Part shown: positions 23,411 through 60,379 of the stretch, piece after piece
Position numbering within the stretch: position 1 is the stretch's first letter
Layout of the letters: each line of letters begins with the position of its first letter
The notes under the pieces: generated by a model
Told to the model about the DNA's origin: nothing
Database searches by the model: none
Seen by the model: only the letters and a program-made list of their open reading frames with translations
Program-made: the position numbers and the translations under genes
Origin: Nitzschia sp. DOCU1
Taxonomy: Eukaryota > Bacillariophyta > Bacillariophyceae > Bacillariales > Bacillariaceae
DNA length: 64,000 nucleotides
Assembly: GCA_951394045.1 (NCBI GenBank)
Contig: OX595985.1
Coordinates: forward strand, 5,270,001-5,334,000
Direction: 5' to 3'

Positions 23411-23614
23411 AGAGAGTGTGATGAGACATATAAGGATTGCGTTCTCGGATTTGGATTGCACTTTGGGAGGCGGAAGAATGGTTGATTGAGATGTTCATTG
23501 TCGATGTCGATCGCCTTGTGATTTTCGTGGAGGTTGAATCAGGTTGGTAATATCATACATTACTGACATGCATATGGGTTAGCAGAGAAGTGGGTGACCG
23601 TGTTATTTCACCCG

Positions 23615-23906
23615 ATAAATAAGTCATGTATTTTGCCCAGTGAACCGAAAATTCTTTGGAAACACTACTGTTTTTTTGAACGTGTTGTCTACGGCAATTT
23701 GAAAGAATCTGATTGGACAGGTAAAAGTTGATATGGTAAGAGTTTCGCGACGAGGGTATGATCGTGGGTATGTTGGCGAAGGTAGTGATTTTACCGCGAT
23801 AAATAACTCATGTGTTTTGCCCAGTTGCCCGAAAATTCTCTGGAAACCCTACTGTTATTTTGAACGTGTGTTCTACAGGATTTTGAAAGAATCTCATTGG
23901 CTACTC
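23615..23906. repeat. Pair of direct repeats, about 107 bp each, about 184 bp apart
   Basis: Unit 1 (about 23615-23720) and unit 2 (about 23799-23906) share GATAAATAA, TTTTGCCCAGT, CGAAAATTCT, TGGAAAC, CTACTGTT, TTTGAACGTG and TTTGAAAGAATCT in the same order and spacing. Function unknown. Confidence 0.8.
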
Positions 23907-24461
23907 GAGGGTTGGAAGCTTGCCACGTTGTTCACAACCGTAGGATCGTAAGCATTCGAAAACTCTATTGTATTTTTTATATGGGTTCTATGAGGACATG
24001 ACGATGGTACCAGTAGTTAACATCTGGCAATCAACCAGAGGTAGTTAAAAACGTTTGAGTGGGCGTTGTAATTTGTGAATTTTGACTTCTTTCAAAATGT
24101 CTTAGGGAACAGATGCCTTCTCCAGAGGTCATAAGCCCTTATTTCAGCAACCGGAATCAATAATTAGCTTTGTTTAATCATTTTTCCTAAGGAATAGGCT
24201 CCCGTATAAATACGTTGAACAATTATTGTGGTCTGGCATCGGGGCTTAAAGAATTTTATGACCGAAGCAAGGTCCGTATAAAGACTGGGAACCGCCGTTC
24301 GGTGGGTGGTTTTGTGATGGAAAAGACAGTGTCAGATTTCAAGTGTTGTTATTGGTTGAGTTTGTGAAGAAGTGTGTTCTTCATATTTGGCCTAATAGCC
24401 TGCTTTTAGCTTACCCAGCTATTTTGCCAGCGATGATGCTGAGTACACTTTCCCTTTGACA

Positions 24462-27400
24462 ATGTCTTCAAGTTGGGACGGTGCAAGCCTGTCAAGCTGT
24501 GACAGCACTAGTGGTGTGTGGAGGAACTTAGACTTAGGAAAGCTAGATGAGTGGGATCTGGAACTGGCAGCATGTCTGCAATCTATTGCAATTTTCGACA
24601 AGTCAATTTTAGTGGGAATGATTGTAGAGATGAACGATGAGGATATGAATGGGGGAAACGAAGAAAATAATGAGGAAAAGCGCAGGAAGGGAGAAGTAGA
24701 AAGAGGAACGGAGAAGGTGACTACCGGGGAGAAAGGAGGAAAGATGATTGAACGAGGAAAAGAAGGTGTCGATACACCAAACCATACTGTGGATGGGTCG
24801 AGAGGAGACGCTATCGATAACTGTGACAATACCATAGATGAAGCAGGCACTGGCATCGACGATGGTGTTTCACATGAAGCAGAAGCATTTAGCGATCCAA
24901 ATAGGACAATGGATGATGCAGATGACAATGTCGACGAAGCAACGGCAGCTTTGGCCGGAGAGAAAGACCGACAAATTTTGCTCACATTGAAAGAGGGTGA
25001 AGCAAAGAGGAACAAAGTTCGTACGGAGGAAGGAGCAGCAAAGGCATTAGGGTCAGAGGAAGACAGTGTCTCAGAAGGTGCTATATCAAGTAGGGAGGAA
25101 AATGATTCGGAGGACAACGACGAAAGTGAATTCGATCCAGAAGAAGAGACGACTCCACCAAGAAAAAAGAGGAGATCCTGTATGTTGAAGAAAGTCGTTA
25201 CGCCCAATGTATTTGAAGACACGGGGAAGCAATCTAATCATAAGAAGCGACCTTACATACTTCGTCATGACAGGAACGAAAAAGATAAGAAGAATCTTGT
25301 TGTTGAAAAGAAGAAAAGAGAGTTGAAGCGTACGGCAGCCGCGCAAGGGTTGTTTGCGAACAGAGATGTGACAGATTTAACAAGTATGATGTGTACTTCT
25401 CCTCGGTTGAAGCAAGTATTAGATGTCAACCTAGAAAGTTGGCAACCAAGTTTTCCGTTATTGGTAAGTTTACCTCATGGTGCTATTTAAGTTTCTTGGT
25501 GGAGTAACGTGCTGACTTTGCTCCAGTATTCTATCATCAAATCTTCGACAGCAGATCAGCAAAATTTGGTGGAGGAAGCTTTTCGGTATTGCAATATAAT
25601 GTGTGCCGAAGCTAATATTAGTTTGCAAGAACATTTTGAACACATGGCACTGACATTGTCGTTCATCGGCAAGCAGAGAAGTATCAGATTGAGTTTTCAA
25701 CGAGTTTGGACACGGAAGAAGAAAGACAAAGTCGACGCCAATATCATTGATCTGAGGTTTGATCGGACTAGGCGCAAACTCATGACTGTTCTTGCTGCTG
25801 CTTGGTCAGACAAATTGGCATCTTTCGAAAATGAACGTGGGAAGAAAGTTAAAGTCCCCAATTACGTGCTACACATGGAAAAGTTTGCTGCTCGTGGAAA
25901 GAAATTATGCGAGATTTTGATTGCGTCAGTTGTCATCACAGAGTATTGTTTGAGTTACACTAGTGGAAACCATGGAACAGTGGAGGAACTGTTTCAAGTC
26001 GTGATGAAATTATTTCGGCACCAGGCAAACTTCCTTGGTTGTTGGCGGTTGATGGAGTGGCTGCTTAGGTTGAAAGTTGGTCGTGATGAAGAGACCCTCC
26101 GGAAAATTCGAATGAAGCCAAGCAACGGAGAGACCTACGTAATGGATGCGATTCACGGAAGAGGATCAAAGATCCCGAAGACGTCCGAGATTGGGCGATC
26201 GGCATCATACTTGGATTCAGGTCTCGGAAAGGGGAGATTTTTTATAATGGGAATGTGACAGAGAAGGATGCTGCTCTCTGGACCATTCAAGCGTTAATTC
26301 ATGTGTACAAATTTCCCCAATTCTCAACAGACGAGGAAGGAAAGTACACTGTTCTGAGCCTACGAATGCCAACCAAAGCAGAAGTTGGATATGAAACAGT
26401 TCGTCACAACCGTCTAGTGGCAGGGAAAAAGTATTATTTGCAGATCCCTGAACAAAGTGGTGTCAATGAGGAGGAGGAAGCAGAGGAGGGGGACGGTGAC
26501 GATGAAATTGTGGACATCGATGCCGCCGTGAACGAAGTGACGAAGCTTAATTTTGAATTTGAATCGGATGAAGAGGTAGACAAAGAAGAGGATAAACAAG
26601 TAGAAGCCGAAGAAGATAAGGAAGATGAAGAGAACGACGACAACGACGATGATGAAGACGACGACGACAACAACCAAGAAGAAGAAGAAGAAGAAGAAGA
26701 AGAAGAAGAAGCCGATGGAGATGACAATGGTCAATCGAAGCAAATGAACAATGGTGGAGATGTCGAAGGGATTGCGGAGGAGATAGAAGAAGAGGTCACG
26801 AATGGAAGAGTAGAAAGACAATCAGATAAGGACGATGTCGATTCTGTGGGAGAGCGTCAGAACAAAACTACAAACAAAGCAGCCGGCGAAGTGAACAAGA
26901 TAACTGTCGACGGGGATGACACAAACGAATCAGAAGAGGATGTGGATCAGCCCCAAGAGCACGTTGATGAGGCGGGTGAAACTATCTTGCTAAGGGACAC
27001 CACATTGAAACCCATGGTGAAATGGAACAGGTTTGCGACAAGCAAAGACTTGGAAGGGAAGTCATTTGTACTGGATTATTTGGCTCCCGATCGAGTCAAA
27101 TGTTCTTTCGAACTGGGCAAATTGGATCACATACATTTCACTCGACTCGAGGAAACTCCTCATCTGCTCAGCTCAAGACCCAAAGGCGGCAAGAAACAAA
27201 AGGTCGAAACAAGCGGAAGTCGGTTATTTGTTGAACGCAAAGACACTCATTTTCTGTATGATTATGGAGTGGTAAGATGTGATGATGCGATCATGAAGAA
27301 GCACCGTGCTTCATTGGTGGATATCGACTTTGACTTGATTCTTTGTTTCCTATGTGCACATGGGTTCAAAGATAAAAAGCGGGACAACATGGCTACGCAA

Positions 27401-29146
27401 ACTTTACGAGTGTCTGTCGGTAGTGCGAACCATAATTACGAGCACAGGCCAGCAGAAAAGGAGAAGAAGGGAAGGAAATGGCATTTGTTACGAGATCTTC
27501 CTCGCAATGATTGCAATTACAAACTAATTGCAAATTTCAACCCAGATTTGCCCAAAGAAATAGGGAAACTGTTGGATTTTGGAGCAGTGGTTTTTGACGA
27601 AACGATGAAAGCAATACGAACGCCTATCCGAGGTTATTTGGATGACCAGTTCATTTATTCTGTGTTCACAGAGCCTTTCGTGAGCTTATTTTCCTGCAAA
27701 CATTGCCGATACCCAAGTTTTGATTTGGTTTGCATGGATGCTGAAGAGCCGGACCCAGAAGAAGAAGGAATGTATCACACTGATGGGAACAATGGTACCA
27801 ACCCAGGGAACGACATTAGTTCTACCCTTTCTATTTTCTTTCGGAGCAAGAAGATTGCGCAGATACTTGAAGAAGAGGGATTGAGAAAGGAGGAAGCACA
27901 ACAACAGGCAGCTTTATTGTTGAAAGGTAAAAAGGACATCGCCAGACTGAAACGCCTGTATATCATATGCTACACTCGCAGTGCCCATGAATATTTCCGT
28001 GACAACGAGACCCTAGCAGAAGGTCTCAAATCTCAGCTGAAGGCTTACAAAACACGGCTGGATGATGCTTACCAAGTTTTTGGTGGGTCCTTTGAATCTC
28101 CTCAGGACATGGTTTTTCCAGACGAGGTGTCCGGGCAAAACAATACAGCCAAACAATTGATGGGAGAAGAAACTGTTGATGAGATCCGTATGCTTTGCTA
28201 CAAGCTTCCTCCATGTTATGCTGGGGAAATGTATTGTTCTGGCGGAATGACGATCCTTTATAGAGCCAACCAAATTCTTGCAGGTGCAGGACAAAGTCGG
28301 AAGAAAATGTTGGAGTTGTATATTGTTGCTTTATCTATGGGCAGCTGGTTCTTGTTTTATCATGCTGGGTTGGATTTATTGGAGGAACTTGCTTGTAATG
28401 CAAACAAAAACTTGACAGTGCTAATGTTGGAGACGATGGTTGCGAAATTTGGGACTTGGAAAGGTGGACCTGGACACCGAGGACGTCCACCGAGTGTTGA
28501 CTTAGTTGAATACTATTCCAATGAGGAACATTTGAAGAGTGCAGTTGATGCCATGGATATTTTCCTATCCCAACTTGAAACTCGTCGAACAATGAGTATT
28601 GAAATGTGGCGGAAATATCTCAGAACGATGATACAATCTCTTCACGGAGTAGGAGAGCATTACGGGATGCGATTTGGTTTCTATGCCGGCCTCACTGGGT
28701 TGGTTTCTACCAACTTACAAAATTGCCTCTTTGCTTATGCAATCCAGGAACAAGGATCTGCTAAGACGATTGAAGCGGAAGACGAAAGGTGGCAAAGTGA
28801 ATTAGACGACCAGCTGACTATTGGTTCCATGGGGGATTCTTGGAAGGAAACATACCAGCGCCTAAAAGACATGGGTTTAAGAGGAGACCCAGAAGGCTTT
28901 CATCAGACGGTACGATTGGTGAGCAGTTTTTGCGGCCTTGAAGGGCGACCTAATTGGATCGAGAATCTTTTCTGTGACGGAATTGGCCCAAACAAGAACA
29001 AGTTTGATTACATTTTCCCAGGCCAGTCTTTGTTTTGGTTTAACTGCTTATCCACCGGTCGGCATAAGCTTGGTGAAATGGTGTTTGTGGTGAAGACAAA
29101 AGCTTGGGGAAGTCAACTATGGTCGGAAGTGAAAACATTTTTTTGA
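24462..29146 (+). CDS. Large acidic protein of unknown function, spliced
   Basis: I do not recognise this gene. Exon 1 (24462-25463, about 334 codons) is E/D/K-rich with a basic patch (PPRKKRRSC) resembling a nuclear localisation signal. A 63-bp GT-AG intron in phase 0 joins it to exon 2, which opens YSIIKSSTADQQ. Near 26130-26190 the reading passes from one frame to another (…YVMDAIHGR to DPEDVRDWAIGI). That is either a 1-bp indel or an unrecognised very short intron. The last frame continues to TGA at 29146 and holds a long D/E tract, a CKHC motif (near 27695) and a helical C-terminal half without a known domain. A poly(A) signal follows at 29158. Total about 1500 residues. It lies next to the RING and Helitron genes and may travel with them. 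Confidence 0.6.
25464..25526 (+). other. Spliceosomal intron, 63 bp
   Basis: Donor GTAAGT after TTATTG, acceptor TTTGCTCCAG before TATTCTATC. It lies between two open frames, keeps phase 0, and the retained-intron reading hits a stop (GCTATTTAA). Confidence 0.85.
26675..26711 (+). repeat. GAA/GAC-rich acidic-codon tract
   Basis: A run of GAA codons (about eleven E in a row) inside a longer D/E region of the acidic protein. It creates long F-rich shadow frames on the minus strand. Confidence 0.85.
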
Positions 29147-29157
29147 AAGTGGTTTAA

Positions 29158-29163
29158 TAAAAG
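29158..29163 (+). promoter_or_regulatory. Poly(A) signal AATAAA
   Basis: AATAAA 12 bases after the stop codon of the acidic protein gene. Confidence 0.6.
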
Positions 29164-29239
29164 TTATAATTGAAACGTTTACATGTACCATCACCAAGAG
29201 TTGTCGTTGCATTGAAGTGTTTCGATATGTTGTCTTGAG

Positions 29240-29449
29240 TCATTCCAATACAAAACAAATGTAGTTGAATTCTCTGCGGCAGACTGGGCAAGTCCAACTT
29301 CTAGTCGTCCAAGAAGTCAAGCAAGGTCCATGGAAATTGTGATTGCACTTGTTTGGTTGGACAACGTCCGAGTTCATGATATGGCGGCAAATTGGACATT
29401 GTTCCTCCGGCAGAGTGAGATCGATGAACTGGCCTCTCCGAGCAGACAT
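29240..29449 (-). CDS. Small RING-H2 finger protein, putative E3 ubiquitin ligase
   Basis: A 69-residue minus-strand frame starting MSARRGQFIDLTLPEEQ. It contains one complete RING-H2 pattern: CPIC, then CNHNFHGPC (Cys-x-His-x2-His-x2-Cys), a W in place, and CPVCRREF at the end. RING-H2 domains recruit ubiquitin-conjugating enzymes. There is room for almost nothing besides the RING. It is divergent to the zinc-ligand ORF starting at 29592, with 142 bp between the starts, so the two may share a promoter. Whether it is a captured host gene or part of the adjacent Helitron is not known. Confidence 0.8.
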   Translation of the reverse strand: MSARRGQFIDLTLPEEQCPICRHIMNSDVVQPNKCNHNFHGPCLTSWTTRSWTCPVCRREFNYICFVLE

Positions 29450-29591
29450 GTTTCAGTTTTATGGGCTGAATATCATCAACCGAATCCAAATATGATACCA
29501 GATTTTGGACTCACAACATTCTCCCCCTAGATATCATAATTTTTCAATAAGATATCCTGCCATAAGGTCAGTGCTGTCTCATTTAGTCACT

Positions 29592-30521
29592 ATGGACAGC
29601 GACTCGGAAGAAAGCACTGCAACGCAGGATGAAGCACCTACATGCTCAAACTGTCATCGGAAAATACCCATTGTGGACTCAAAGCAATGGGAGGACGTGT
29701 ACCGACTAAGCAGAAAAACTTATTTTGGAATTATTGGCCGACCTCTGGAAGTATTTCTATGCACGGAATGCAATGCATATCTTATTCCTGGATCCAACAA
29801 AGGAGCTTGGGCACCGATGCTGTGGAAGTTTCTGTCAGAAGCTAATGAGAACAATGTTATGTCATTGACCATGGAAGAAAAGTGGAAGTATATCCCGGTT
29901 CAATGGAGAGAATGGTGGCTTCCAAGTGTGGAGAATGCAGGTTTGACTTTACACTGCCCGGCCCCGGAGGTTTTTGACATGTCAGAGGCAAAATTGGAAT
30001 TAGGTCGAGCATTGAGTACACTGAGATGGAGAACAATGGCACCAGCCATGGACAAATACCTTGCTTATCCGTCCGTGAGATGTCCTTGGGGGTGTGGCGC
30101 GTATCTTCATGAAACCAATGAGGTACCATATGAAGATCTTCTTCTAGTGAAAAGCAACTATGCATTCCGTTCTACATCAACAGTCAATAGAAACAAGGGT
30201 CGCCGGGCATGGGTTGATTCTTGTCGTCCAGACTTTCCTTCCTCCACTATCATACTGGAGAATGATGACTTCGTATGCCGACCCTGTGTCATTTTAACAG
30301 AGGAAGGACCTAAGATGCTGTGTTGCAAAAAACATGATGCCAAAACAGTCCAACGGATGCTACATGTTCCGGTCAACCCCACCGGGTCATTATTCACCGA
30401 TTGTTCCAACCAATATGCTCCACTTGTGCTGAAGTCGAGGACTATCCGTACAACAAAACTTAATGTGGCCAATTATCCCAGGTTGTCGCAACCTGTCATA
30501 TATGCAAAATCAATGGAATGA
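29592..30521 (+). CDS. Zinc-ligand protein overlapping RepHel, possibly its N-terminus
   Basis: I chose the ATG at 29592 (MDSDSEESTATQDEA) because it follows a stop-free but featureless stretch and begins the conserved-looking part. The 309-residue frame has CSNC near residue 18, FLCTEC near residue 57, PWGCG and CRPC-type cysteines further on, suggesting zinc-binding modules. No named family is recognised. The frame ends in TGA at 30519-30521, 58 bp inside the next ORF, which is in the +1 frame. Helitron RepHel proteins often begin with zinc-finger-like regions, so this may be the true N-terminus, split by a 1-bp indel, programmed frameshift or unrecognised splice. A separate cistron is the alternative. 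Confidence 0.6.
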   Translation: MDSDSEESTATQDEAPTCSNCHRKIPIVDSKQWEDVYRLSRKTYFGIIGRPLEVFLCTECNAYLIPGSNKGAWAPMLWKFLSEANENNVMSLTMEEKWKYIPVQWREWWLPSVENAGLTLHCPAPEVFDMSEAKLELGRALSTLRWRTMAPAMDKYLAYPSVRCPWGCGAYLHETNEVPYEDLLLVKSNYAFRSTSTVNRNKGRRAWVDSCRPDFPSSTIILENDDFVCRPCVILTEEGPKMLCCKKHDAKTVQRMLHVPVNPTGSLFTDCSNQYAPLVLKSRTIRTTKLNVANYPRLSQPVIYAKSME

Positions 30522-33500
30522 GTCAGATGTCGATGAAGGCACGGAGTATGTCATACTAACCTTTTCGGATTTCCAAAGTGTGACATATGAAGAAAATCCT
30601 ATGGGGTTCAATGGATTAGCATACGAAGGCATTGCGAGGTTGGAGATTAGCAACGAAGTCTGGGAACCAGTTCTGATAATTTCCGCTCAGAAAGTTCCAT
30701 CGACTTGTAAAGCTACGGTATGGGATGCTTCGGTATACTCGAAACATGGGCAACCCATTCATGTAGGTTGGTGGATGCAAGAACATGCAAACGAAGGATT
30801 CAAAAAATGCAATGTTGGATCCTCATTTCGTACCAAAGGAAATGTTCGTTTGGTTATTTACAAGAGACGATGCGGTACACGCGCAAGTCAAATGCGAGAT
30901 CGCTACCTGAGATTTTTGGGTGGCCAAACTGCGGTCTTTTGTGCCCGCCACAAACATCCTTTAACACTTGCATACAAGGAGGAACGAAAATGTTGTTGTG
31001 ATGGCAATGATATTGCCACAACAGGAAAGGAATGGGATAGCATAGAAACTACAACCTGCAAGAAGAACGCAAGTTATGTTTGCCCCAACTACGATTGTGA
31101 AGTTGCCATCTGCGGAGCTGATTTCAGCACTTTATGTGATTGCATTGGGACAAATTCTTATCTTCTATCAGAGAATTCTTGTCGAAGAACGTGTTACCAA
31201 CAAGCGAGTAGTGTCTCCCACATGATCCCCGAGCCCGTAGAGCAAGACGACGAGACAATGATCTTTCGTCACTCCATCGACAGAAATGATTCATATCAGG
31301 AAGAAGAAAATATGGGCAATGATTCCGTCCATGAGGAGGATGATGACAATGCCGACGAAGAGAATGCTAATGATGAAGACAGTGATGAAGAACTTCATTA
31401 TGGACCATCCAGTGGGTTCGAGAGTATTTACGATTTGGTTGATGTCGACGCACCCCAGGAATACAGCTCGGATTCGGACGATAACGCAGATATGGCCAAT
31501 GTAGGACCCTTACACCCAATGACCGTGGCCCAGAGAGAAGAAAACTTAACTTTTGAAATGGATGTCCCAACGGAACAGAATCAAGAAATTTTGTCCATTC
31601 CTTTGCATGTATTTTTGAATCGTCAAGGACATTGTCTGGTTCGTCGAAATGCCAAACTGAGGCCCAGTCAACGTCACAAGGCCTTCTTACAAAGGATGGT
31701 GGCCAGATCAAAAGGGAAGTGTGTTCCCTTATTATATGGGGAAGGAAGCTTATTTCCCGACATTTTTTATGCCGCCTCGCCCGAAGGCGCCGTTCTTGGT
31801 GCTCTACCTACTGCATTATGGACAGATCACCACACGATGTCCCGTCATGGTGTTGCTTCCATGAGAAGTCATGCATGTGTTAGAATCACTGATCCAGCAC
31901 TACTTACTTGTACAGACAGCAGGTACCATTTCCTGACCATGGACACATTGGTTAATCTAGGTTTGAGGGGCAATGACTCACGATTGTTATTGCATCGGGG
32001 ATTTGCCGAAAGTCAAGGGAAAAACGAGGGGATTGCATTTCGAGTTGAGGACGGAACTGAAGAGCTATATGACGACAATGTGGACAATCATTCTAATGTT
32101 CACAAATTATCACGTTTATGTGAAGAGGACCCAGGCCATTTTTTTTATACACAGAGCTGTAACAGCGACACCGCCAAAGCCCTTGGAATTTTGCGTAAAT
32201 GGATCACCAGTACACGAGCTACAGAAAAAGTAATGAAAAAGTACAATCTGACCAAGGACGAAGCCCAGGATATTCTCAGGACTTCTGCTGCTCCTTTTGT
32301 CCAATCTGCCTGGAACGTTTTCATTGATATCTGGATGAACTATATCATTCACAGCCCTGAAGAACCTCTTGGTCGTGTTGACTGGGCATGGATTAGAAAG
32401 GAATTCCAGGACAAGACCGGGAACGTGAGCCACATTCATTCTATCATCAAAACTTGTTATGATGCCTCAACCGAAGAGGGTAGGAACATGATCCAGGATA
32501 AGATTCGTGGATGTCTAGCTGATCTTGTGCGACAGGAAGAGATCCCAAGCATGGTAGAAAAGGGAATTCTGCCTTCGGCAGAACCGATGGAATGTTTGAT
32601 CAATATCCTGAACCAAGCAAAGAAATTTTTGCCACACCATTGCGGCCCACGTTGCCAGGTGGTAAAAAAGGATGAGAATGGTCATGACGTGTTCATTTGC
32701 AAGCGCCCATACAATTGGTTGTTAACCTCGAATCCAGGGGTTCACAGCATGGAAGAAGTACAGGTGTCTCATACTTCCACCAGTTTGGATATTCTACGTG
32801 AGCTAGGTTTTGCATCCCGACAATTTGAAGGTCAAGAAATTTCTATCACAAATCCATTATTGCAAATGAGCAGACACATTCCAAAATGTTCCAAAGGCGA
32901 CGGCAGATTTTCTCCTACCAATGGTCAATTGTTTGCTATGTATCCTTCAGCATCGAATTTGCAGTATGTCAGTGGGCATTGTTTGTCAGCGTATCTGAGC
33001 TCGTACATCGCAGAAGTGGATCGGGTTGCAATTGTTCATATACAACCTCCAACTTCACATGCACCAAACATTCTCCGCGGGAAATATGAGTCCTTGAACA
33101 ATACAAAGATTAAGGGAGTCAAACGGCACCATGAAACGCGTTTAATAAAGCGCAGGGTAAAAGTTCCAATGGGGCGTCCAGTAACCCAAATGGAGGCTCT
33201 GACTGTGATTAAAGGAGAGCCCTTGGTGAGATCCACTCGATTCTTTATCCATCTCCCCACTTCACCTCGAGAGTTTCGAGCAGCTGCAGATGCTCCCTAC
33301 GTGAAAACTTCGTGCAGACCCCAAGATCTACAAGCTGTGTTGGCAGTTACCGGTCAAACGAGTCGGCTTAGGAAAAACTTTTCTTCCTCAAGATGCTTTA
33401 CAGATCATCAATTAATGGTGATACGGGACGAATTAAGAGCCCCTCTGCAGACAGACCTTATGACTCATTTCTCTATGCGTCCCCCAGAATTGATTTTTGT

Positions 33501-36378
33501 TGACAGTTGTGTGGACTATGTTCGCTGGTTCAAGAGAAAAGGGGTATGTCCTCTCTTCGATCCAGCGAAAGCATTAGCTTATCTGGGTTCAGTACTTGAT
33601 TTGAGAGAAGACAAAAGTCCTTGGTTGGATGGTTTCAATTATCAAGTCAAATTGCGTTATGCTGCCATACAGCCCTTATACAATTTTGCGAAGGCCCGTA
33701 TGGCAGATACGTCCCACTTTCGGAAACCCACCCAAGCTACTATGCGGTTGCTTGGTAAACTGGCATGGATGTCAGCAGGTTATCCAGCTGATGAAATATA
33801 TGTATACACAAGGAGGACGAAGAAAGAGATGGAATCTCTGTGTACAATGTTTCTTGTTGATCGGACTGTAAAGAAATTACCAGTTGTGTGGTGGACACCG
33901 ATTAACCCCAGACGGAAAACAGCTTTCTTGGTGCATTTGTTGTTGTGTATGGGCCGTTTTACAACGGAATATGAACTCATGCTGCAAGGAAACATGAGAG
34001 CCTCTTTTGTTGAATCTGGTTTGCTTGATCCCAACAATCCTTCCCAATCCTTGGTAAATATCTTGCGCAAATACGTGCTCCATCAACTTCGGGTTCAGCC
34101 AGGAAATGTTTACCAATTTGACCGGAATCTAGCGGAAGCATACGACTTGCTGAAGAATACCTTTCCCCCCAGGGAACGACTACATGAAGGAAATTTTTGT
34201 CTAGGAACACCGCCAGTTCTGTACTCAGCCATTATCAGAGATACCAGCCAAAAGGTGACTACTTACCTTCGAACAAGGAGAGAAGAATTCATCACTGCCA
34301 TCTATGGTGAGCTAAGGAACTGTGGCCTACTACATTTGGTGCCCGAGCGAGAAGCTATTATGAATTCAAGGACAGTTCCAATCCCACAAGAAGAAATAGA
34401 CCAGTTTTTCCCTCCACCATTGAACGAAAATCAATCAGAAGCATCGCATGTCGAACAAACTGCAATTATGGTTGAATTCAAGAAGAGCGTGCAGGCTTAC
34501 AAGTCAGGGTGCCAACCACACAAAAATTTCATTGTCGTTGGTGGACCTGGTGTTGGGAAAACTACAGTGACTACATTTTGTTGCTTGTTTTGTCTGGCGG
34601 TGGGATTGTATGGTATTGCGACTAGTCTGGTTGCTGACAGGTCGAAAGCGTTAGGTGGTGTTCATTTTCATAGACTTATTGGAATGAGAGGACAGTCCGA
34701 ATCGGTTTCGCCAGGAAGGGCCGCTGAATTGGCACTTCAGTACATATTTCGCCATCCTGAAATGTTGGAATTCATACGGCGTCAGGATTTTATGAACTTG
34801 GATGAGTTTGGTCTGTTTCCTGCAGAGTATGTTGCTATCATGGACATTGTGTACCGGTACATTCGAGGATGCTCTTTGTTTATGGGAGGTTTGCTGTTGT
34901 TCGGAACTATGGATCATCTGCAGTTATTGCCCTTTCATGGTACTCCTGTGCTTCTGTCTTTATACATCGTAACCGATTTCACTTTCTTTCGTTTGAAGGA
35001 ATCTGTCCGGGCTTGGAAAGACACGGCGCTACAAGAGATAATAAACCTCACTCGCACCATCCATTGGACAAGGGAGAAAAAGGAACGATTCAAACAGCTG
35101 CTCAGAGACAACGTCAACTTTGTCGACAGTTTTGATCACACGTCAATCCCTTCTGATGCAATATTCATATTTGGACGAAAAGAGCCTTGCCGAGTGGCTG
35201 AGAATATCTTGTTGGAGAAAATGAAAGCAACACATGCTGGTGCGTACACTACTTCCATGTGTCACGACGAAGAATCCACCACAGGCGGGAATTGGCACCT
35301 TGCTAGCGAGGGAACCAGTCGCCATCTGGACAAAAGGTTGAAACAAAGAAGAAGTCTAGTCTTTTACCCGTGTGCCAAATTTGAGTTTACCCAAGTGCTG
35401 AAAGGAAAATTCAACCAAGGACAGTTAGCATTGTTGTTGGAGATTCCATCTTCCGATACTTTGCAACAACAAAATCCTATAACTCTTCTTGCTGCCCCAA
35501 GTGGAATCAAACATTATCCAGACGTCCAAGATTGCAACCGTACCTGGTTGCTTGAGCATGGTTGGTATGATGTGAAAGTTCCTTTCACCACTTCACCCAA
35601 CCAGCAGATCATGAAAGGAGTCCAGGCACGTCGAACTCAATATCCTCTCAAGCCGAGAGTGTCCAGCACGATTCATGCCTGCATGGGATCAACTCTTTCC
35701 GCTATTGTCTCTTCGGTCGTTTCTCTGGCAGGAATGCCATACAACTTTTCCTTATGGGAAGCTGCCCAAGTAGTCGTGTTGCTGAGTCGAACACGCACTG
35801 CAAAAGCTATCTATTTTATTGGAGACAGAGAAAGTACCATTCAACATCTTCTTGATGTTCTTTCTGGCCAGCAGTATCGATATTTGAGATTCATAACGTC
35901 TCTTTTACTGAAACTGTGTTCTGAAGAATCCGAAGGAGTTGCAAATCCAATACACGTCTTGCCCCAACCAACTCAATTCAGGCCCCAAGATGCTGAACTT
36001 CCTCGAGGACCAGCTGTGTACTTAATAGTCAGCACAAAAAATCCTGCTTTCGAATATATTGGAGAAACATCTCATTTGGTGAAACGCCTGGAGGATCACA
36101 ACAGCCTACGTGGACCGCCCACTACTGCTCATGCTGATCTCCTTCCTTACGCGGTTCACGCTTATGTAATTGGATTCGTTGATAAAAGCGAACGTCTTCA
36201 GTTTGAGGCAGAATGGAAGATTCGTAATATGCGCACTCCACAAATTTCTTTGAATAACAATGGCAAGGTCGACATTGCCTTGCAAATGATAGCAACGAGA
36301 AACGCCGACATTCGTCGTGCTGGGATGCCGAACTTACGTGTGGTTTGTTGTGGTTATATAGAGACCGTAACAAGATAA
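30463..36378 (+). CDS. Helitron-type RepHel (HUH nuclease + Pif1-like helicase) with C-terminal GIY-YIG nuclease
   Basis: A 1971-residue uninterrupted frame. A cysteine-rich N-terminal part and an acidic linker (about 260-340) precede the Rep region: FFYTQSCNS (about 563), a K/RxEFQ-type segment followed by the HUH motif SHIHSII (about 655), a C/H cluster (HHCGPRCQV, FICKRPYN) and the tyrosine motif AYLSSYI (about 840). The helicase has Walker A GGPGVGKTT (about 1360), Walker B NLDEFG (about 1446), motif III GTMDHLQLLPF (about 1486), motif V STIHACMGSTL (about 1733) and motif VI SRTRTAKAIYFIG (about 1772). A separate domain at about 1850-1940 has AVYLIVS, FEYIGET, VKRLEDHN (R and H) and FEAEW (E): the GIY-YIG nuclease signature. 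Rep would nick and join single strands and the helicase would unwind; the role of the GIY-YIG domain is unknown. An AATAAA lies at 36406. Confidence 0.85.
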   Translation: MWPIIPGCRNLSYMQNQWNESDVDEGTEYVILTFSDFQSVTYEENPMGFNGLAYEGIARLEISNEVWEPVLIISAQKVPSTCKATVWDASVYSKHGQPIHVGWWMQEHANEGFKKCNVGSSFRTKGNVRLVIYKRRCGTRASQMRDRYLRFLGGQTAVFCARHKHPLTLAYKEERKCCCDGNDIATTGKEWDSIETTTCKKNASYVCPNYDCEVAICGADFSTLCDCIGTNSYLLSENSCRRTCYQQASSVSHMIPEPVEQDDETMIFRHSIDRNDSYQEEENMGNDSVHEEDDDNADEENANDEDSDEELHYGPSSGFESIYDLVDVDAPQEYSSDSDDNADMANVGPLHPMTVAQREENLTFEMDVPTEQNQEILSIPLHVFLNRQGHCLVRRNAKLRPSQRHKAFLQRMVARSKGKCVPLLYGEGSLFPDIFYAASPEGAVLGALPTALWTDHHTMSRHGVASMRSHACVRITDPALLTCTDSRYHFLTMDTLVNLGLRGNDSRLLLHRGFAESQGKNEGIAFRVEDGTEELYDDNVDNHSNVHKLSRLCEEDPGHFFYTQSCNSDTAKALGILRKWITSTRATEKVMKKYNLTKDEAQDILRTSAAPFVQSAWNVFIDIWMNYIIHSPEEPLGRVDWAWIRKEFQDKTGNVSHIHSIIKTCYDASTEEGRNMIQDKIRGCLADLVRQEEIPSMVEKGILPSAEPMECLINILNQAKKFLPHHCGPRCQVVKKDENGHDVFICKRPYNWLLTSNPGVHSMEEVQVSHTSTSLDILRELGFASRQFEGQEISITNPLLQMSRHIPKCSKGDGRFSPTNGQLFAMYPSASNLQYVSGHCLSAYLSSYIAEVDRVAIVHIQPPTSHAPNILRGKYESLNNTKIKGVKRHHETRLIKRRVKVPMGRPVTQMEALTVIKGEPLVRSTRFFIHLPTSPREFRAAADAPYVKTSCRPQDLQAVLAVTGQTSRLRKNFSSSRCFTDHQLMVIRDELRAPLQTDLMTHFSMRPPELIFVDSCVDYVRWFKRKGVCPLFDPAKALAYLGSVLDLREDKSPWLDGFNYQVKLRYAAIQPLYNFAKARMADTSHFRKPTQATMRLLGKLAWMSAGYPADEIYVYTRRTKKEMESLCTMFLVDRTVKKLPVVWWTPINPRRKTAFLVHLLLCMGRFTTEYELMLQGNMRASFVESGLLDPNNPSQSLVNILRKYVLHQLRVQPGNVYQFDRNLAEAYDLLKNTFPPRERLHEGNFCLGTPPVLYSAIIRDTSQKVTTYLRTRREEFITAIYGELRNCGLLHLVPEREAIMNSRTVPIPQEEIDQFFPPPLNENQSEASHVEQTAIMVEFKKSVQAYKSGCQPHKNFIVVGGPGVGKTTVTTFCCLFCLAVGLYGIATSLVADRSKALGGVHFHRLIGMRGQSESVSPGRAAELALQYIFRHPEMLEFIRRQDFMNLDEFGLFPAEYVAIMDIVYRYIRGCSLFMGGLLLFGTMDHLQLLPFHGTPVLLSLYIVTDFTFFRLKESVRAWKDTALQEIINLTRTIHWTREKKERFKQLLRDNVNFVDSFDHTSIPSDAIFIFGRKEPCRVAENILLEKMKATHAGAYTTSMCHDEESTTGGNWHLASEGTSRHLDKRLKQRRSLVFYPCAKFEFTQVLKGKFNQGQLALLLEIPSSDTLQQQNPITLLAAPSGIKHYPDVQDCNRTWLLEHGWYDVKVPFTTSPNQQIMKGVQARRTQYPLKPRVSSTIHACMGSTLSAIVSSVVSLAGMPYNFSLWEAAQVVVLLSRTRTAKAIYFIGDRESTIQHLLDVLSGQQYRYLRFITSLLLKLCSEESEGVANPIHVLPQPTQFRPQDAELPRGPAVYLIVSTKNPAFEYIGETSHLVKRLEDHNSLRGPPTTAHADLLPYAVHAYVIGFVDKSERLQFEAEWKIRNMRTPQISLNNNGKVDIALQMIATRNADIRRAGMPNLRVVCCGYIETVTR

Positions 36379-36405
36379 TCAGTTAGTACGATACAAAAGA
36401 ATTGC

Positions 36406-36411
36406 AATAAA
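36406..36411 (+). promoter_or_regulatory. Poly(A) signal AATAAA
   Basis: AATAAA 28 bases after the RepHel stop codon. Confidence 0.6.
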
Positions 36412-36497
36412 GTTTGAGAGTTGGAGAGTTTAAGAGTCGAACGGTACTAGTAATTTTTGTCCCCCTGCTTGCATCCACTTGTGGTTTTTTTCTTCAG

Positions 36498-36712
36498 CAT
36501 GTTCGTATGTACAGTGCCAACGTTGGTACAATAACAATATCCTTAAGGACTTCACTAGTTCCTGTTTCTTCGTCGGCATGTTCGTATGTACAGTGTCAAT
36601 GTCTGTACAATTACAACATCCTTAAGGACTTTATTAGACCCTATTTCTTTGTCGACACGTTCGTATGTACAATGCCAGCTTTTGTACAATAGCAACGTTC
36701 TTAAGTACTAAG
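36498..36712. repeat. 79-bp tandem repeat, about 2.7 units
   Basis: Units start at 36498, 36577 and 36656 with CATGTTCGTATGTACA or CACGTTCGTATGTACA, each continuing with TGTACAAT or GGTACAAT, ACAA, CTTAAGGAC. The period is exactly 79 bp for the first two steps. It is located just downstream of the RepHel gene, where Helitron 3' ends often carry minisatellites. Confidence 0.88.
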
Positions 36713-36882
36713 TCATTGGTCATTGACGAGTCATAGAATCTTTATCTTCTCGTTTCGAGTCGGTGGGAAATCTGTATTCAACTTTCCACCATGCCACGTT
36801 GGTGCTACGCAGCACTCTTGCTACCGTCCGTTGAAAATATATTTTCAGACCTATCATTACCTTTGGAAATTAACTTGGAAAA

Positions 36883-38010
36883 ATGTTGCCTCCTGACACG
36901 TTCGAATTGATCAAAGAATTCTGTGGTGGAAACATCATTCCTGAAGCGGATCATATTTTACATAACGGACAACTTCAATCGTTGCAAATTGATGTAAACG
37001 AGTGGCGGAGGAAACTTCTCAGATGGTATTTTTTGTTGGACCGTTATCCCGAATACGGATTAGCTGTGGAATGGATCCATTTTTCCAATCATGACGGTGG
37101 ATCTTATGGATATCTGTCACCCCAACTGCATGAATTGATGAGATATTTCCCGAACGTCAGGAATGTTGCGTTTGATAGTGTCTACCTTGTCTGTGAAAAC
37201 TCTTTATCCTGTGGAGATGTCTTGTTCACATTGCAGAGAACTCTTGAAGGCTTGCGGCTCACCGCTCCGCTTACCCCTCCTTGGTCGTCCTACGTCCGAC
37301 CTTTGGATGCATGCAAACGTCTTCTGTATTTCGAGATGAACGGTATGACCTTTGAGAACCAAAGTTCTACATGGCATTTGGATGATGTGTTTTCAAATTT
37401 ACGCAATCTACGAGTATTTATAATGCAGAACTGCAGTATCCGACAATCTTGCGATGAGGGTGTTGGGAACGCCATTTCTCGAGTTGCTAACGGACACACT
37501 CTCAAAGAATTGAATTTTCGAGACAACCTTTTCGAAGGACAACAGACGCTGGCGGGGCTTGCCGATCTTATTGCTTTTCAATCGACAACTTTGACATCTT
37601 TCATTTTGACCGGCGTGCAAACTTTCTCCACTGAAACCCTCAATCATCTTTGGAATTCAATGGGCCAGTGTGGGAGGTTTAGACCCTCCCACGATGATTT
37701 CCAGCAATTGATTTTTTCAAACAACAACTTGCAAGATAGAGATTTGGAATTGATGTACTCGGCCGGATTTGAAGACGAGGAGGACCTTGACCTTTTCTTC
37801 ACTAATCCTTTGTATGTGGTTCATGAACTGGATCTGAGCCGCAATCATTTGACGGCCACCAGTGTGGCGGAACTCCTGCGAACATTGAATCACGATGATT
37901 GCAAGCTGACGAAACTAAATCTGAGCCACCATGCATTCTCTCTCGGCGAAAGGATGCAATTGCAGTCTTTGGCCCAAGAGCAATGTTCTTGGATTCACAT
38001 TTGTTGGTAG
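36883..38010 (+). CDS. Leucine-rich-repeat protein, ribonuclease-inhibitor-like pattern
   Basis: A 375-residue intronless frame. From about residue 160 it has spaced LRR-like segments (NLRNLRVFIMQNCSI, TLKELNFRDNLF, TLTSFILTGVQTF, DFQQLIFSNNNLQD, VVHELDLSRNHLTATS, KLTKLNLSHHAF), with the LxLxxN/CxL pattern of long repeats. No signal peptide or membrane segment is evident, so it is likely intracellular. The N-terminal 150 residues match nothing I know. LRR proteins bind other proteins; the partner is unknown. It lies between two tandem-repeat arrays, and may be a passenger or a host gene. Confidence 0.7.
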   Translation: MLPPDTFELIKEFCGGNIIPEADHILHNGQLQSLQIDVNEWRRKLLRWYFLLDRYPEYGLAVEWIHFSNHDGGSYGYLSPQLHELMRYFPNVRNVAFDSVYLVCENSLSCGDVLFTLQRTLEGLRLTAPLTPPWSSYVRPLDACKRLLYFEMNGMTFENQSSTWHLDDVFSNLRNLRVFIMQNCSIRQSCDEGVGNAISRVANGHTLKELNFRDNLFEGQQTLAGLADLIAFQSTTLTSFILTGVQTFSTETLNHLWNSMGQCGRFRPSHDDFQQLIFSNNNLQDRDLELMYSAGFEDEEDLDLFFTNPLYVVHELDLSRNHLTATSVAELLRTLNHDDCKLTKLNLSHHAFSLGERMQLQSLAQEQCSWIHICW

Positions 38011-38024
38011 AACGAAATATATAT

Positions 38025-38408
38025 AAAATAGTACTAGAACTTCAATTGCTTTATATCGTCAATGCTACACTCTCTCAACCTAAATATAAAGTTATAGTAC
38101 CGTCGCTATCCGACTGTACTGCTCCCCTGTCCGATGCTGTCCGCCAATGTTTCAATACCATGGCCCTTGCCAGAAAGAGGTCTCTTCTTGGACAGTGTCC
38201 GGAGACGTCCATGTCTAAAATAGTACTAGAACTTCAATTGTTTTATATCGTCAATGCTACAGTCTCTCAACCTAAATATAAAGTTATAGTACCGTCGCTA
38301 TCCAACCGTACTGCTCCCCTGTCCGATGCTGTCCGCCAATGTTTCAATACAATGGCCCTTGCCAGGAAAGGTCTCTTCTTGGACAGTGTCCGGAGACGTT
38401 CGTGTCTG
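38025..38408. repeat. 192-bp tandem duplication
   Basis: Two consecutive copies, starting at 38025 and 38217 with AAAATAGTACTAGAACTTC and ending in GGACAGTGTCCGGAGACGT. They differ at a few bases (for example TTGCTT/TTGTTT and CCGACTG/CCAACCG). The unit begins with an A/T-rich TATAAAATA-like element. Confidence 0.9.
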
Positions 38409-38511
38409 ACCTAGCCTGTATGGTTAAATCCAACCCTTTGAGACCAGACGATTAAACAGACCTGAAAAAGATTCAAATGTCGTATTTGACATATTACATG
38501 CTTCTCACAAA

Positions 38512-38519
38512 TATAAAAT
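38512..38519 (+). promoter_or_regulatory. TATA-like element upstream of histone H3-like gene
   Basis: TATAAAAT lies 43 bases before the ATG at 38562 in an A/T-rich stretch. Confidence 0.45.
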
Positions 38520-38561
38520 AGACATCATACAAAAGCTGTGCTCACTTTGTTTTCTTGCATC

Positions 38562-38999
38562 ATGGCTCGTACAAAACAATGTGCTCCTAAACGGTGGCTC
38601 TCGAATTCAAAACCGAACCAAACAAAAGAACAAAGTGTCAAAACACGCCGGGCGACTACTACTACAGAAGATACTCATTCGACGACAGAACCACTGATGA
38701 AACATCGATATCGGCCTGGCACTATAGCTCTTCGGCAAATTCGACAATACCAAAGGCCAACTGAGTGTCTAATTAACCCAAGAGACTTTCAAAATCTAGT
38801 ACGTCAAATAGCCCAGAGATCCTTAGGGCTTACACTACTTTTTCAAGAATCTGCCATCGCGGCCCTTCAACAAGCGTCGGAAGCTCATCTGATCGTAATC
38901 TTTGAGGAGGCAAAGATGTGTGCTATGCATGCTAAGCGAGTAACGATCCAACCAAAAGATATGCAACTAGCAAAGCGTATCCGTGGCAAACGAGAATGA
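38562..38999 (+). CDS. Divergent histone H3-like protein
   Basis: A 145-residue intronless frame starting MARTKQ as in canonical H3; the in-frame TTG-type start upstream is rejected. The tail diverges quickly (lysines at positions 4 and 9 kept, then S/T/K-rich). The histone fold is clear: [17 protein letters not shown] (alpha N), LVRQIAQ, a loop 1 of [10 protein letters not shown] that is about one residue longer than in canonical H3, [21 protein letters not shown] (alpha 2, only part quoted), [21 protein letters not shown] (alpha 3). It would pair with H4 in a nucleosome. The lengthened loop 1 recalls centromeric H3, but other CENP-A hallmarks are not evident. It may be a variant H3 or a captured, fast-evolving copy in a mobile region. 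Confidence 0.88.
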
Positions 39000-40168
39000 A
39001 TATCACCTGATATAATATACAACTCCTTATTTCCCTGACAAGACCCAGAATGGCAAAGGATGATGCTAGCTGTACATTTTCATTTATGCCGGGGACAGAA
39101 ACGAAAGTGCGCCGGTGTGTTCTTCCCACAGGGAGAACCATCCGGCGCCACCATGATGCGTCTGCGAGTCGTTTCTCATTCCACCTTGATAATCCATGAC
39201 TGGGAAAAACATATTGAATCAAATGGACATTGGACGGTGAACGATTGTACCATAATCAAGTTGAAGAAACCCAAAAGGGAAGACAAGTCCTTAACAAGGT
39301 TTTCTTCTCTTAAACCTCCAAAATGAGACGCCGGGAGCCTATCATTGTATAGCCATACAACGCCTCTATGTTTTTTGTACTACCTACAGTAATGCACAAA
39401 AATTACACTGTGGTTGCTCAAAAGATATGGATTAATCAGCAGCAGCGTCGTGGGTCAATAATGATTCCCAGCGTTTTGGCTATCTTGCTCCACAACTTCC
39501 CCTTGAGGTTGGCGTTCAATCACCATTTCCCGGGTGCAAACCTGTCCCTTGATGACGATCCACCCCAGGAATGCAGCTCCGATGGAAAAAAGTACTTGCA
39601 ACTGTCGTTCAATGCGATACAATAAGCATCAAGCAGCTGCAAGAAGGCAACAACAAAAACTTGTGAAACACAATAAGCATCAGGCACCAGCAGCTGCAAG
39701 ACAACAACACAAAGCTGCTGTGATACTGACAAAAGATGACGACATAAGATATGACACTATCAGTGGATAACATAAGAACCGACAGCCTACGATGGAGATT
39801 ACACCCGAGACAGTATATCAAATGGTGATACACGGTGGGATAATACAAGAAGATGCCTATCTACTAATAACACTGCATGGCACCATACCCTACATAGTAC
39901 TACTACTCGAGTAGTATCCCCATTGTCGGTGCAAACATTACGAAGCAGCAAGGGAGACATTGTGAAAGAAGAGCCAGCAATGAGAATGTACACGCTTCTA
40001 ATTCACAGTTTTGCTGACTTTCAATAGGAAACACTGCTATACAAGAACAAGTCTGCCGCTTTGTTGGCTCTTACACAATTGTTTCTTTAAACTTCTTCAA
40101 CTCACACTTTCTTATACTACATCCACCACTCTTTCTTCCTCAGCCCATCATCTTCTTTTCTTCTCACG
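39000..40168. other. No supported gene; includes a Q/A-coding repeat
   Basis: Frames of 78-88 codons occur on the plus strand (39060-39326, 39368-39625, 39534-39770) without recognisable domains. Two imperfect about 50-bp repeats lie at 39621-39721. The last part (39990-40168) is pyrimidine-rich and is probably the 3' flank of the minus-strand gene ending at 40169. Confidence 0.5.
39621..39721. repeat. Two about 50-bp direct repeats
   Basis: Both units start ACAATAAGCATCA and continue with GCAGCTGCAAGA and CAACAACA. The second contains a 3-6 bp insertion (CACCAG). Confidence 0.7.
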
Positions 40169-41214
40169 CTAACGGCTGGAAGCAGCCCTACCATCCTGGC
40201 CATCACCACCACCACTACCACTACCGGTCCCTCCACCACCATAACCAAACTCTTCCTTCGCAATCTTACAATAAGGGGGCGAATAGTGTGCTTTCACCGT
40301 GTTGCAACCACTTTGAGCAAAGTTTTTGTCAGGGCTTGGAACATATAGCAACCGCATAATTCTTGCTACATCTTCATCCAACAAACGTTCATCCCAACAT
40401 GCCAACCCACCCATCGGGGTTCGATTGAAATCGGCAGGAACTTGAAATACGGCACTGCTATTTCCGTACAATCCCTCTTTGTTCTTGTTATACGCATTCA
40501 GAAACTGACATAAGACATGGGGAGATCATGATGTATTAGATACTCCAACACAATAACCAGCCATAGTAATGTCCTCTTCTCCTACTTCCATTGATCCCTT
40601 CTTACCTCAGCAATATATTCGAGACACTGACGACGATCGTTGTCTCTTGCACTTGCGCTCTTGTTTGAATCAGTCTGTCGAATCAAATAAGTTAACTTAT
40701 ACATCACCCCGTTGTTCCCTTGTTTCATTTGAACCTGATTATCCTTTCGGCTGACTCTACGACCAGCCGCGGCAAATATACCTGTTTTCTTCTTCGCTTC
40801 TTCCATCACCTTTACTGCCTTGGGATCTTTTCGGTCATAGGAGAAGATGGCCTTCATGAAAGGATCGATGAAACCTTCTTTGTTGCCATCGTTGCACCAA
40901 ACGATGTCAATGTCACCCTGTAAATTTTCAACAAACAACTCGGGATGTGCCCCTCTCAAGTTAACAGGAGGGGTTCCATCGGGGAGGATTTCGGCTCGCA
41001 TGGAATAACCACCTCCGACATCGATAGTAGGTATAACTCCTTTGAATCTTTTGAGGTTGTCCTGGGTGTAGGAAGTTTCTGCATCTCCTGCTGCCACATC
41101 CTTACTTACTTGACGAGAATCACGTTTGGTTGCGTGAGAGTCCGGAGAAATAACTCGAATGCTCTGACCATCGCCATTCTTCTCAAGTGCTGTAGTCTTC
41201 CTAGCTGGTGCCAT
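40169..41214 (-). CDS. Two-exon protein of unknown function (about 314 aa)
   Basis: Exon 1 (41214-40606) is 609 bp, exactly 203 codons. The intron (40605-40505, 101 bp) has GTAAGA...CAG, and exon 2 (40504-40169) opens FLNAYNKNKEGLYG and ends after a glycine-rich tail (GGGGTGSGSGGGDG). The protein starts MAPARKTTALEK and has KRFKGVIPTIDVGGGY, GDIDIVWCNDGNKEGF and CLEYIAE; I recognise no family. Compositional features are a basic, Ser/Thr-rich N-terminus and a disordered C-terminus. It is divergent to the gene at 41315, with about 100 bp between starts. Confidence 0.7.
40505..40605 (-). other. Spliceosomal intron, 101 bp
   Basis: Minus strand donor GTAAGAAG after GCTGAG, acceptor TTATGTCAG before TTTCTGAATG. 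Phase 0; reading through it hits TAG within 12 codons. Confidence 0.85.
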
Positions 41215-41314
41215 CTTTCTTCGTTTTTATGGCATCAATGTAAAACTATGAACAGCTGCAGTAAAGATTCTTTATTAAGAACAAATTTTTTTCTTGTACC
41301 CTCTGTTATCTCAA

Positions 41315-42588
41315 ATGGAAAGTCCACTTCTCTCCCAGAAAATTCTCGATGAGATAACTTTCCATTCTTTCAATCTCAATTCGGCTTTTCTGCCCGCACA
41401 AACATTGCAAACTACACTTCTAACTTTTAGATCTGACTCATACTATCTAAACCCTTTGCTTGTTGACACCGTGTTGCATCATGCTTTTCTCGAAGGAACT
41501 GTTCTCCCCAATGGTAGATACTACTATGTACAAAGACCATTGTCGCTTTGTTAACATAGCATATTTGAGAGATCCAAAGAACATGAACAAAAGAGATAAT
41601 ACCATGATTCGGTTCTTTGTTCTAGCTTGCACTATGGGTACCCTTAATAATAACACTGGCAGGGTCATGTCGAATGGCAACTTTGGGCCCAACAAGAGAG
41701 CTAAGACTGCAACGACAACTACCTACAACCGATACTTTCTGGTAGCCGATCTTGAAACCCCCCCCCCATTGTGCCGCCATCCTCCCAAGATCCGCTGAAG
41801 AAGCCTCCCGACTACTACACATGACAAACGGCGGCCCTTTTGTTGGTACTGCCTTTGTTTGCTCTGAACCCTACCCAATCCAGTCTACCCTTGGTGACTA
41901 TTTACCCATTCTTCAATTGACCCGTTCTCCTTTCTTGCCACTGCAATCCATGCAGGAGCATTTACACAGCACGGAAGCCACAATGTCCATGCCCCGTCAT
42001 ATTGGTGAAACCAATTACTTCATTCTCACAAACAAGGAAATAACTCTGCATTGCATCAATGTTTGCCCCGAACAAACCTGCCTTGGAATACAATGCGACC
42101 GCCAAAAGGGTAAAGGTGGTTGTTCTTGTCAACATTCAACCAATCATACTTCTTCAGTGTATGAAATCGACCTGGAATTCCCAGTTCCTGCTAAGATCAA
42201 TCCCAGCGAATATCACAATGTCGATGTCCCTGAGGATGGCCCATACAGAAACAATGTCACAGTGCTCGGATTTCGATCCCTGAGGACTACCAAACTATTC
42301 TTTCGCAACTATGAAAACTATTGCACCCAACACACCACTAATGACCAGGAACGTAATCGACTCTACCTACGTCAAAAAATTGATACGATGGTCCAACACA
42401 TCAATGTCAATGGTGGATGGACAATTGTGGGATGGTTTATGATGGGTTCTGTCATGGATGCTGCTTCCTCTTCATCTAGTGAAAAAATCCAGAACAGGGA
42501 AATCACTATTCATATCTCGTATTTGTACCCGACTGACGCAGACCACATCTTAAACACTGATGCATATTCTGAACGTCTCATCAACTGA
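41315..42588 (+). pseudogene. Protein of unknown function, reading frame broken twice
   Basis: Three overlapping plus frames appear to be one gene of about 420 codons. The first begins MESPLLSQKILDEITF at 41315. It shifts near 41540 to the frame with VNIAYLRDPKNMNKRD and RYFLVADLE, then at a run of ten C (41758-41767) to the frame with PHCAAILPRSAEEASRLL, ending ERLIN at 42588. The C10 run is a typical site for sequencing or assembly indels. The last part holds a cysteine cluster (CPEQTCLGIQCDRQK, CSC). No family is recognised. If the indels are artefacts, the gene is intact. Confidence 0.55.
41758..41767 (+). repeat. C10 homopolymer at a frame break
   Basis: Ten consecutive C bases exactly where the frame changes in the surrounding gene. 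A one-base error would restore continuity. Confidence 0.9.
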
Positions 42589-42665
42589 AACATCTCAATC
42601 TTCTTATCATCTCTATGATTACTTTCATATAACTTAACTTCTTTTTCACGTTTGTTCTGGTCCTC

Positions 42666-56511: not shown

Positions 56512-56536
56512 AACCTAGACGGGAGTTTTAAAACTG

Positions 56537-60354: not shown

Positions 60355-60379
60355 AACCTAGACGGGAGTTTTAAAACTG

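Follow-up and report, generated by a model that had tools for sequence, protein, structure and literature searches.

A large Helitron-like transposon of Nitzschia sp. DOCU1 whose RepHel protein ends in an SLX1-like GIY-YIG domain

Introduction

According to the papers cited here, canonical Helitrons have TC...CTRR ends and insert at A^T (PMC4778049); Helentrons insert at TT (PMC5148889) and carry an AP endonuclease related to that of CR1 elements (PMC4067079); and Helitron2 elements have asymmetric terminal inverted repeats with hairpins at both ends (PMC3627910), a TTTT^T/C target (PMC5148889) and no nuclease domain (PMC4067079). Here we describe a large Helitron-like element of Nitzschia sp. 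DOCU1, found in a stretch of 64,000 nucleotides of contig OX595985.1 (hereafter the window, in whose numbering all feature coordinates are given). Its RepHel protein joins a two-tyrosine HUH Rep and a Pif1-like helicase to a C-terminal GIY-YIG nuclease domain. To our knowledge, how Helitrons finish transposition, including second-strand cutting and the resolution of branched DNA, is an open question that is usually left to the host. A group with a nuclease of the structure-selective type inside its transposase offers a testable handle on this final stage.

The element is a member of the broad Helitron superfamily on the features tested, but it departs from the defining features of Helitron1 and of Helentrons and from the TTTT target of Helitron2. 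With Helitron1/Helraiser it shares a two-tyrosine HUH Rep of the same fold, a Pif1-like helicase and, apparently, the absence of a target-site duplication, but it adds the C-terminal GIY-YIG domain, and neither its ends (5'-ATARTGG, in the window ATAATGG, to CTACTTG-3') nor its target (CTYG^N) is that of Helitron1. Canonical Helitrons have a stable hairpin near the 3' end; in the last 60 bases of the window copy no strong one stood out from shuffled sequence. The third nuclease fused to the RepHel C-terminus recalls Helentrons, as does the OTU domain of some relatives (proteins P0074 and P0087 of our collection), but we rejected membership of that group: GIY-YIG stands in place of the AP endonuclease, for which the window open reading frame (ORF) and the related proteins P0001, P0074 and P0087 gave no match, and the target is CTYG^ (13 of 13 left ends), not TT. 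Helitron2 resembles the element in combining a RepHel with non-canonical ends, but the element has a CTYG^ target instead of TTTT, and the GIY-YIG domain besides.

Outside the Helitrons, SLX1 has the same GIY-YIG fold and active site, and an SLX1-like locus of the same genome (L091) is 32% identical to the window domain over 73 amino acids; the latter is fused to a RepHel, however, and the window ORF has no RING match at E values up to 10, on which ground we rejected an SLX1 orthologue. IS91 elements are bacterial, insert beside CTTG or GTTC (a preference that our literature search did not confirm) and, unlike the element, lack a helicase and a GIY-YIG domain. They do share its HUH two-tyrosine type of transposase (PMC4778049). 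Penelope-like elements and Terminons also bring GIY-YIG into eukaryotic mobile elements, and Terminons carry Rep proteins as well (PMC6431247), but these are retroelements with a reverse transcriptase, and the window ORF has no RVT match. We found no description of a Helitron with a GIY-YIG fusion in open-access full texts, a scope outside which most subscription papers and Repbase lie; in passages from papers there that name both, GIY-YIG refers to Penelope-like elements, Terminons, homing endonucleases or a viral mariner element.

Results

The RepHel-GIY-YIG ORF spans 30463..36378 on the forward strand and encodes 1971 amino acids. Its Rep region (31585..33402, +), with the HUH histidines at 32431-32439 and the two tyrosines at 32992-33006, was assigned by conservation and by a predicted structure that matches the fold of Helraiser (7lcc) in Foldseek and VIA. 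Downstream lies the Pif1-like SF1 helicase region (34360..35832, +), whose profile matches include Pif1 helicases of known structure as well as the helicase of 7lcc. A Pfam search of the ORF recognised neither the Rep nor the helicase. The GIY-YIG domain (residues 1843-1925; 35989..36237, +) has the profile, the fold and the active-site residues of its superfamily (Y1853, Y1865, G1867, R1875, H1879, N1880 and E1915), and its fold is nearer to that of the structure-selective SLX1 than to that of I-TevI. The sequence-only reading of this locus had proposed a Helitron-type RepHel with a C-terminal GIY-YIG domain, to be given up if the domain had no profile match or fold or if no other Helitron copy carried it; we find profile, fold and active-site residues in place and the domain in many further copies, so the assignment is genuine. 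The same reading took a frame intact over 1971 codons as a sign of recent function, and this part is not supported for the window copy. The related protein P0001 has 2520 amino acids, of which residues 1-290 align at 60% identity to 29592..30464 (+), the N-terminal part of the RepHel, and residues 549-2513 to 30460-36369 in a different frame, while the 258 residues between them have no counterpart. The RepHel of the window copy is thus damaged, with about 258 codons gone and a frame change at that place, and its long open frame alone is no sign of recent function.

Other copies do bear signs of recent spread. The genome searched comprises 52.08 Mb in 63 contigs and holds 35 stretches that match the window RepHel, several of them in stop-free frames of 2,421-2,577 amino acids; merged by hand, they make 21 RepHel loci. 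Three copies of the same family (L002, L003 and L004) show 67% protein identity. L003, with an open frame of 2517 amino acids and no stops, is 99.9% identical over 8,188 bp to L004, whose frame has one stop, and in another family L006 and L007, which sit on different contigs with different flanks, share 99.96% identity over 19,975 bp. Recent spread is evident from these copies (L006/L007 and L003). PF01541 scores above cut-off at 24 places in the genome, which we sorted by position or sequence into 21 RepHels or their relics and three other genes (one SLX1-like, one UvrC-like and one unassigned); a GIY-YIG profile made from the element gives the SLX1-like gene 45.9 bits and the UvrC-like gene 7.4 bits. 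The ratio of non-synonymous to synonymous substitution in the RepHel is below 1 in L006/L010, L006/L009, L002/L003 and L018/L020 (0.17, 0.16, 0.30 and 0.23, respectively, with the L002/L003 value covering part of the gene); the eight remaining pairs are at or close to saturation at synonymous sites. Within the GIY-YIG domain, L006/L010 and L006/L009 show six synonymous and no non-synonymous changes, and L002/L003 and L018/L020 one of each. By these substitution counts the nuclease domain is under selection in the recent copies.

The fusion extends well beyond this genome. Three protein searches over about 5.8 billion proteins gave overlapping lists that together hold 123 proteins. The first, which scored only the 7,986 candidates with the most shared words, returned 57 matches, 49 of them with PF01541; the searches from P0057 and P0087 returned 46 and 23 matches, of which 10 and 13 had PF01541. 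The element's own GIY-YIG profile reaches at least 5 bits in 94 of the 123 proteins and at least 50 bits in 76. For alignment we took the proteins of at least 1,900 amino acids out of 102, added the window ORF and left out 12 proteins without a GIY-YIG match (nine that end before or inside the helicase, and P0077, P0078 and P0079, which end at its close), leaving 71 rows. Every row keeps the HUH histidines H657/H659, the tyrosines Y844/Y848, the lysine of Walker A, the glutamate of Walker B and the glutamine of motif III. In the GIY-YIG domain, arginine and histidine occur together in 51 of the 71 rows, and the catalytic glutamate is present in 46, which is probably a lower bound because the rows of one branch are, by eye, shifted in that column. 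Among the 51 rows with arginine and histidine, GIY-YIG distances track those of the Rep (r 0.79) and the helicase (r 0.77), and none of 2000 permutations was as high. In a tree of 55 chosen rows rooted on the Helitron proteins P0120-P0123, the other 51 fall on one side with an SH-aLRT of 100; this outgroup consists of four proteins only, with P0122 flagged by the tree tool as a long branch, and P0050, which is cut inside the GIY-YIG domain, was excluded from trees. Judging by the correlated distances, the Rep, helicase and GIY-YIG domains have been inherited jointly. Viral contigs gave zero pattern matches when scanned with a single protein and 74 when scanned with alignment A1, none of them confirmed, and Foldseek comparison of the Rep model with viral models gave no match at E <= 0.001.

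The whole element occupies 22409..43912 (+; 21,504 bp), as delimited by recurring left and right ends. The 5' terminal sequence, ATAATGGTCCGTGG... (22409..22582, +), is common to sister and non-autonomous copies: the left ~180 bases are found again at 12 further places, with match starts that agree within one base. At the other end lies the 3' terminal motif CCACGCTACTTG (43901..43912, +), and similarity ends after CTACTTG / CCACGCTACTTG in the window copy and in five of the six paired copies fetched, the fetched stretch of the sixth, L052, being without CCACGCTACTTG. This motif occurs 41 times in the genome, against five for its reversed control. It lies downstream of 11 of the 13 left ends, at 3.9-23.1 kb, and it lies 6.8-13.7 kb downstream in sense at 10 of the 21 RepHel loci and upstream at one, where 0.008 per locus would be expected. 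CCACGCTACTTG is also found in antisense at G000 C12:1460333 and C8:1746080, close to where two related RepHel copies (L009 and L008) have their 3' end. The L006/L007 family has the same 3' end, but its shared sequence begins without CTYG and no clear 5' end emerged there, the side being possibly truncated or repeat-rich. Terminal hairpins were no better than those of shuffles: the last 60 bases at the 3' end of the window copy fold at -3.6 kcal/mol (z -0.90; 41 of 200 shuffles as stable), and folding at its 5' end has a z of 0.05. GC skew within 22501-44000 is +0.56 at the left end of the element and -0.41 at the right end, and the GC content of the element is lower than that of most of the flanks; skew and GC content had hinted at the borders before they were mapped.

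In the aligned left ends CTYG precedes ATARTGG in 13 of 13, with the bases farther out free, and the right ends that carry CCACGCTACTTG read CTTG. Immediately outside the 5' end of the window element this tetranucleotide is CTCG (22405..22408, +), the target as judged from the empty-site paralogues L057 and L058. On its left side the window element is bordered by sequence that lies in a repeat with 11 other copies, and of the four paralogues fetched as empty sites two read CCATCTCG^TGTGCAT and two CCATCTCA^TGTGC, while the filled site reads CCATCTCG-element-TGTGCAT. A second element (L044/L051) likewise lies in a repeat, three paralogues of which continue across the junction for about 7 bases (AAAGGTA). 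Insertion is 3' of CTYG. It appears to proceed without target duplication, as supported by the two empty-site comparisons with diverged paralogues, and the left tetranucleotide would be supplied by the target.

Discussion

We think it probable that the element in the window is one copy of a large Helitron-like transposon of the rolling-circle type, that its transposase unites three enzymes (a Rep of the HUH/two-tyrosine kind, a Pif1-type helicase and a GIY-YIG endonuclease like SLX1), and that the transposon moves in the following way. By analogy with the Helraiser and IS91 schemes, the Rep would nick the left border just 3' of CTYG, the helicase would peel away one strand, the Rep would make a second cut after the terminal CTTG, and the freed strand would be joined to the target 3' of a CTYG there. 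On this scheme the left CTYG would be target sequence and the right CTTG part of the element. The GIY-YIG domain would nick the other strand where peeling or joining creates branched DNA (a flap, fork or junction), as its SLX1-like fold suggests, and it would act in cis, replacing the host replication and repair assumed for other Helitrons. Conservation together with the predicted fold makes a role of the nuclease in transposition plausible, and because many related elements share the fusion, the domain probably takes an active part in their movement. Near-identical copies with open frames are available in this genome, and the mapped ends and the CTYG rule allow assays to be designed.

Several observations weigh against this account, in which the nuclease and transposition functions are predicted from sequence, models and analogy. 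The RepHel of the window copy is itself broken. SLX1 partners with SLX4 and carries a C-terminal RING domain, to which the window ORF gave no match. At the window target, paralogues L059 and L060 (two of the four fetched) read CTCA instead of CTCG, and only 7 bases of right flank match the empty site before another repeat begins; at the second site the three paralogues read CTGG, CACG and CTCA where the filled site reads CTCG, so that none has CTYG, and for a third test pair no empty site was found, with only the element's own flanks matching. Of the 123 proteins, 29 score under 5 bits with the element's GIY-YIG profile: the four outgroup Helitrons P0120-P0123, in which no GIY-YIG was found, 20 that end before or inside the helicase, and P0075-P0079, which extend through the helicase, break off about 20 residues or fewer beyond it and may either lack the domain or be cut gene models. 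The GIY-YIG active site is lost in the OTU-bearing branch P0057-P0071 (14 of 14 aligned rows), and together with the absence in P0120-P0123 this means that GIY-YIG is not needed for rolling-circle transposition generally.

Under one alternative the GIY-YIG domain acts in targeting: it would open the insertion site, as has been proposed for Penelope-like elements, and would dictate the preference for CTYG. We regard this as unlikely. GIY-YIG enzymes do include site-specific homing nucleases, and the site preference is real at all 13 left ends, but the target tetranucleotide matches the element's own 3' CTTG, which is what would be expected if the Rep alone recognised both, and the fold lies on the SLX1 side of the comparison with I-TevI.

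The degenerate branch raises another alternative, that the domain is retained as a structural or DNA-binding module with no catalytic use. The Helitron-like proteins P0057-P0071, several of which include an OTU domain, come from contigs as long as 1.1 Mb and keep a GIY-YIG-like C-terminus; that of every protein scored (16 of 16, including P0090 and P0091) outscores all 200 of its own shuffles, with 10.2-32.4 bits against at most 8.3. Catalytic residues are also lost in a few rows outside the branch. The fold can thus outlive catalysis, and the nuclease is dispensable in a branch that has lost its active site. Against this, arginine and histidine persist in 51 of 71 rows across deep divergence, and recent copies are under purifying selection, so we give a purely structural role a rather low probability. 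P0074 and P0087 combine OTU with an intact GIY-YIG, and on the unrooted 70-row tree the degenerate state (17 rows, labelled by eye) needs four changes, which suggests, without proving, that the GIY-YIG nuclease is ancestral and that its enzymatic function was lost more than once.

It is very improbable that the locus is a Helitron-derived host gene that has been domesticated and is no longer mobile. The RepHel of the window copy is damaged, and RepHels of its family number just four in the genome, but dispersed near-identical copies (L003/L004, and L006/L007 with their different flanks) and ends common to non-autonomous copies largely refute domestication. A one-off fusion, a chance match or a gene-model artefact, which Pfam's blindness to the Rep and helicase of this ORF might have favoured, deserves practically no credence, since searches found the same domain order in tens of contigs and at about 20 loci of the genome.

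Returning to a transposon with its own nuclease, we also offer, tentatively and leaning slightly against it as a whole, a broader proposal. The element would represent a deep, distinct group of ~22 kb Helitrons with an SLX1-derived junction nuclease of their own (one protein that nicks, unwinds and resolves), CTYG-directed insertion and a fixed accessory set that includes a histone H3 variant and a SET-like protein, perhaps shaping chromatin on the element's own DNA; the OTU-bearing elements on long contigs would share the three-enzyme ancestor of this group but no longer have the nuclease's active site.

Accessory genes and surroundings

Upstream of the RepHel lies an accessory gene (24456..29146, +) made up of ORFs 24456-25490, 25509-26258 and 26255-29146, the last 59% identical to ORFs at the same place in the L002, L003 and L004 elements; Pfam gave only sub-cut-off matches here, for 25509-26258. 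Downstream is a leucine-rich-repeat-like ORF of 375 amino acids (36883..38010, +; Pfam LRR_1, 1.8e-4), followed by a histone H3 variant of 145 amino acids (38562..38999, +; Pfam Histone, 2.6e-29). The variant starts with ARTKQ, its loop 1 is one residue longer than that of the canonical-looking H3 of the genome (L080-L082), and each of the three sister elements has a homologue, 45-48% identical to it, in the corresponding position. It is unusual in itself for a transposon to contain a conserved histone H3 gene. H3 genes that have diverged further are found close to some of the other RepHel loci.

On the opposite strand, an accessory ORF of 210 amino acids (40582..41214, -) is 64-65% identical to its counterparts, which occupy the corresponding position in the three sister elements; a putative SET-like ORF of 246 amino acids (42666..43406, -) likewise has counterparts there, at 39-40% identity. 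The SET label is weak, with a Pfam SET value of 0.034 for the window ORF, below cut-off, and, among the four relatives given to Pfam of 11 in hand, 0.14 in one and no match in three. The SET-like ORF is also conserved, more weakly, near other RepHel families. Helentrons have been reported to contain SET fragments (PMC4067079). ORFs that resemble the accessory set lie near some more distant RepHel loci, which speaks to their position and not to membership of an element. Tandem repeats occur 3' of the RepHel gene, with a 79-bp unit at 36486-36709 (2.8 copies) and a 192-bp unit at 38024-38407 (2 copies).

Just outside the element, two ORFs in 44263-45400 (-) give the impression by sequence of FkbM-type methyltransferases, the one at 44627-45400 being without a Pfam match. 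The flanks (1-22404 and 46250-64000) hold pieces like long terminal repeat retrotransposons (RVT_1/RNaseH and RVT_2) and DDE_Tnp_1_7 ORFs, which we take to be piggyBac-like. Some of the flank pieces are inverted copies of one another, 97% alike.
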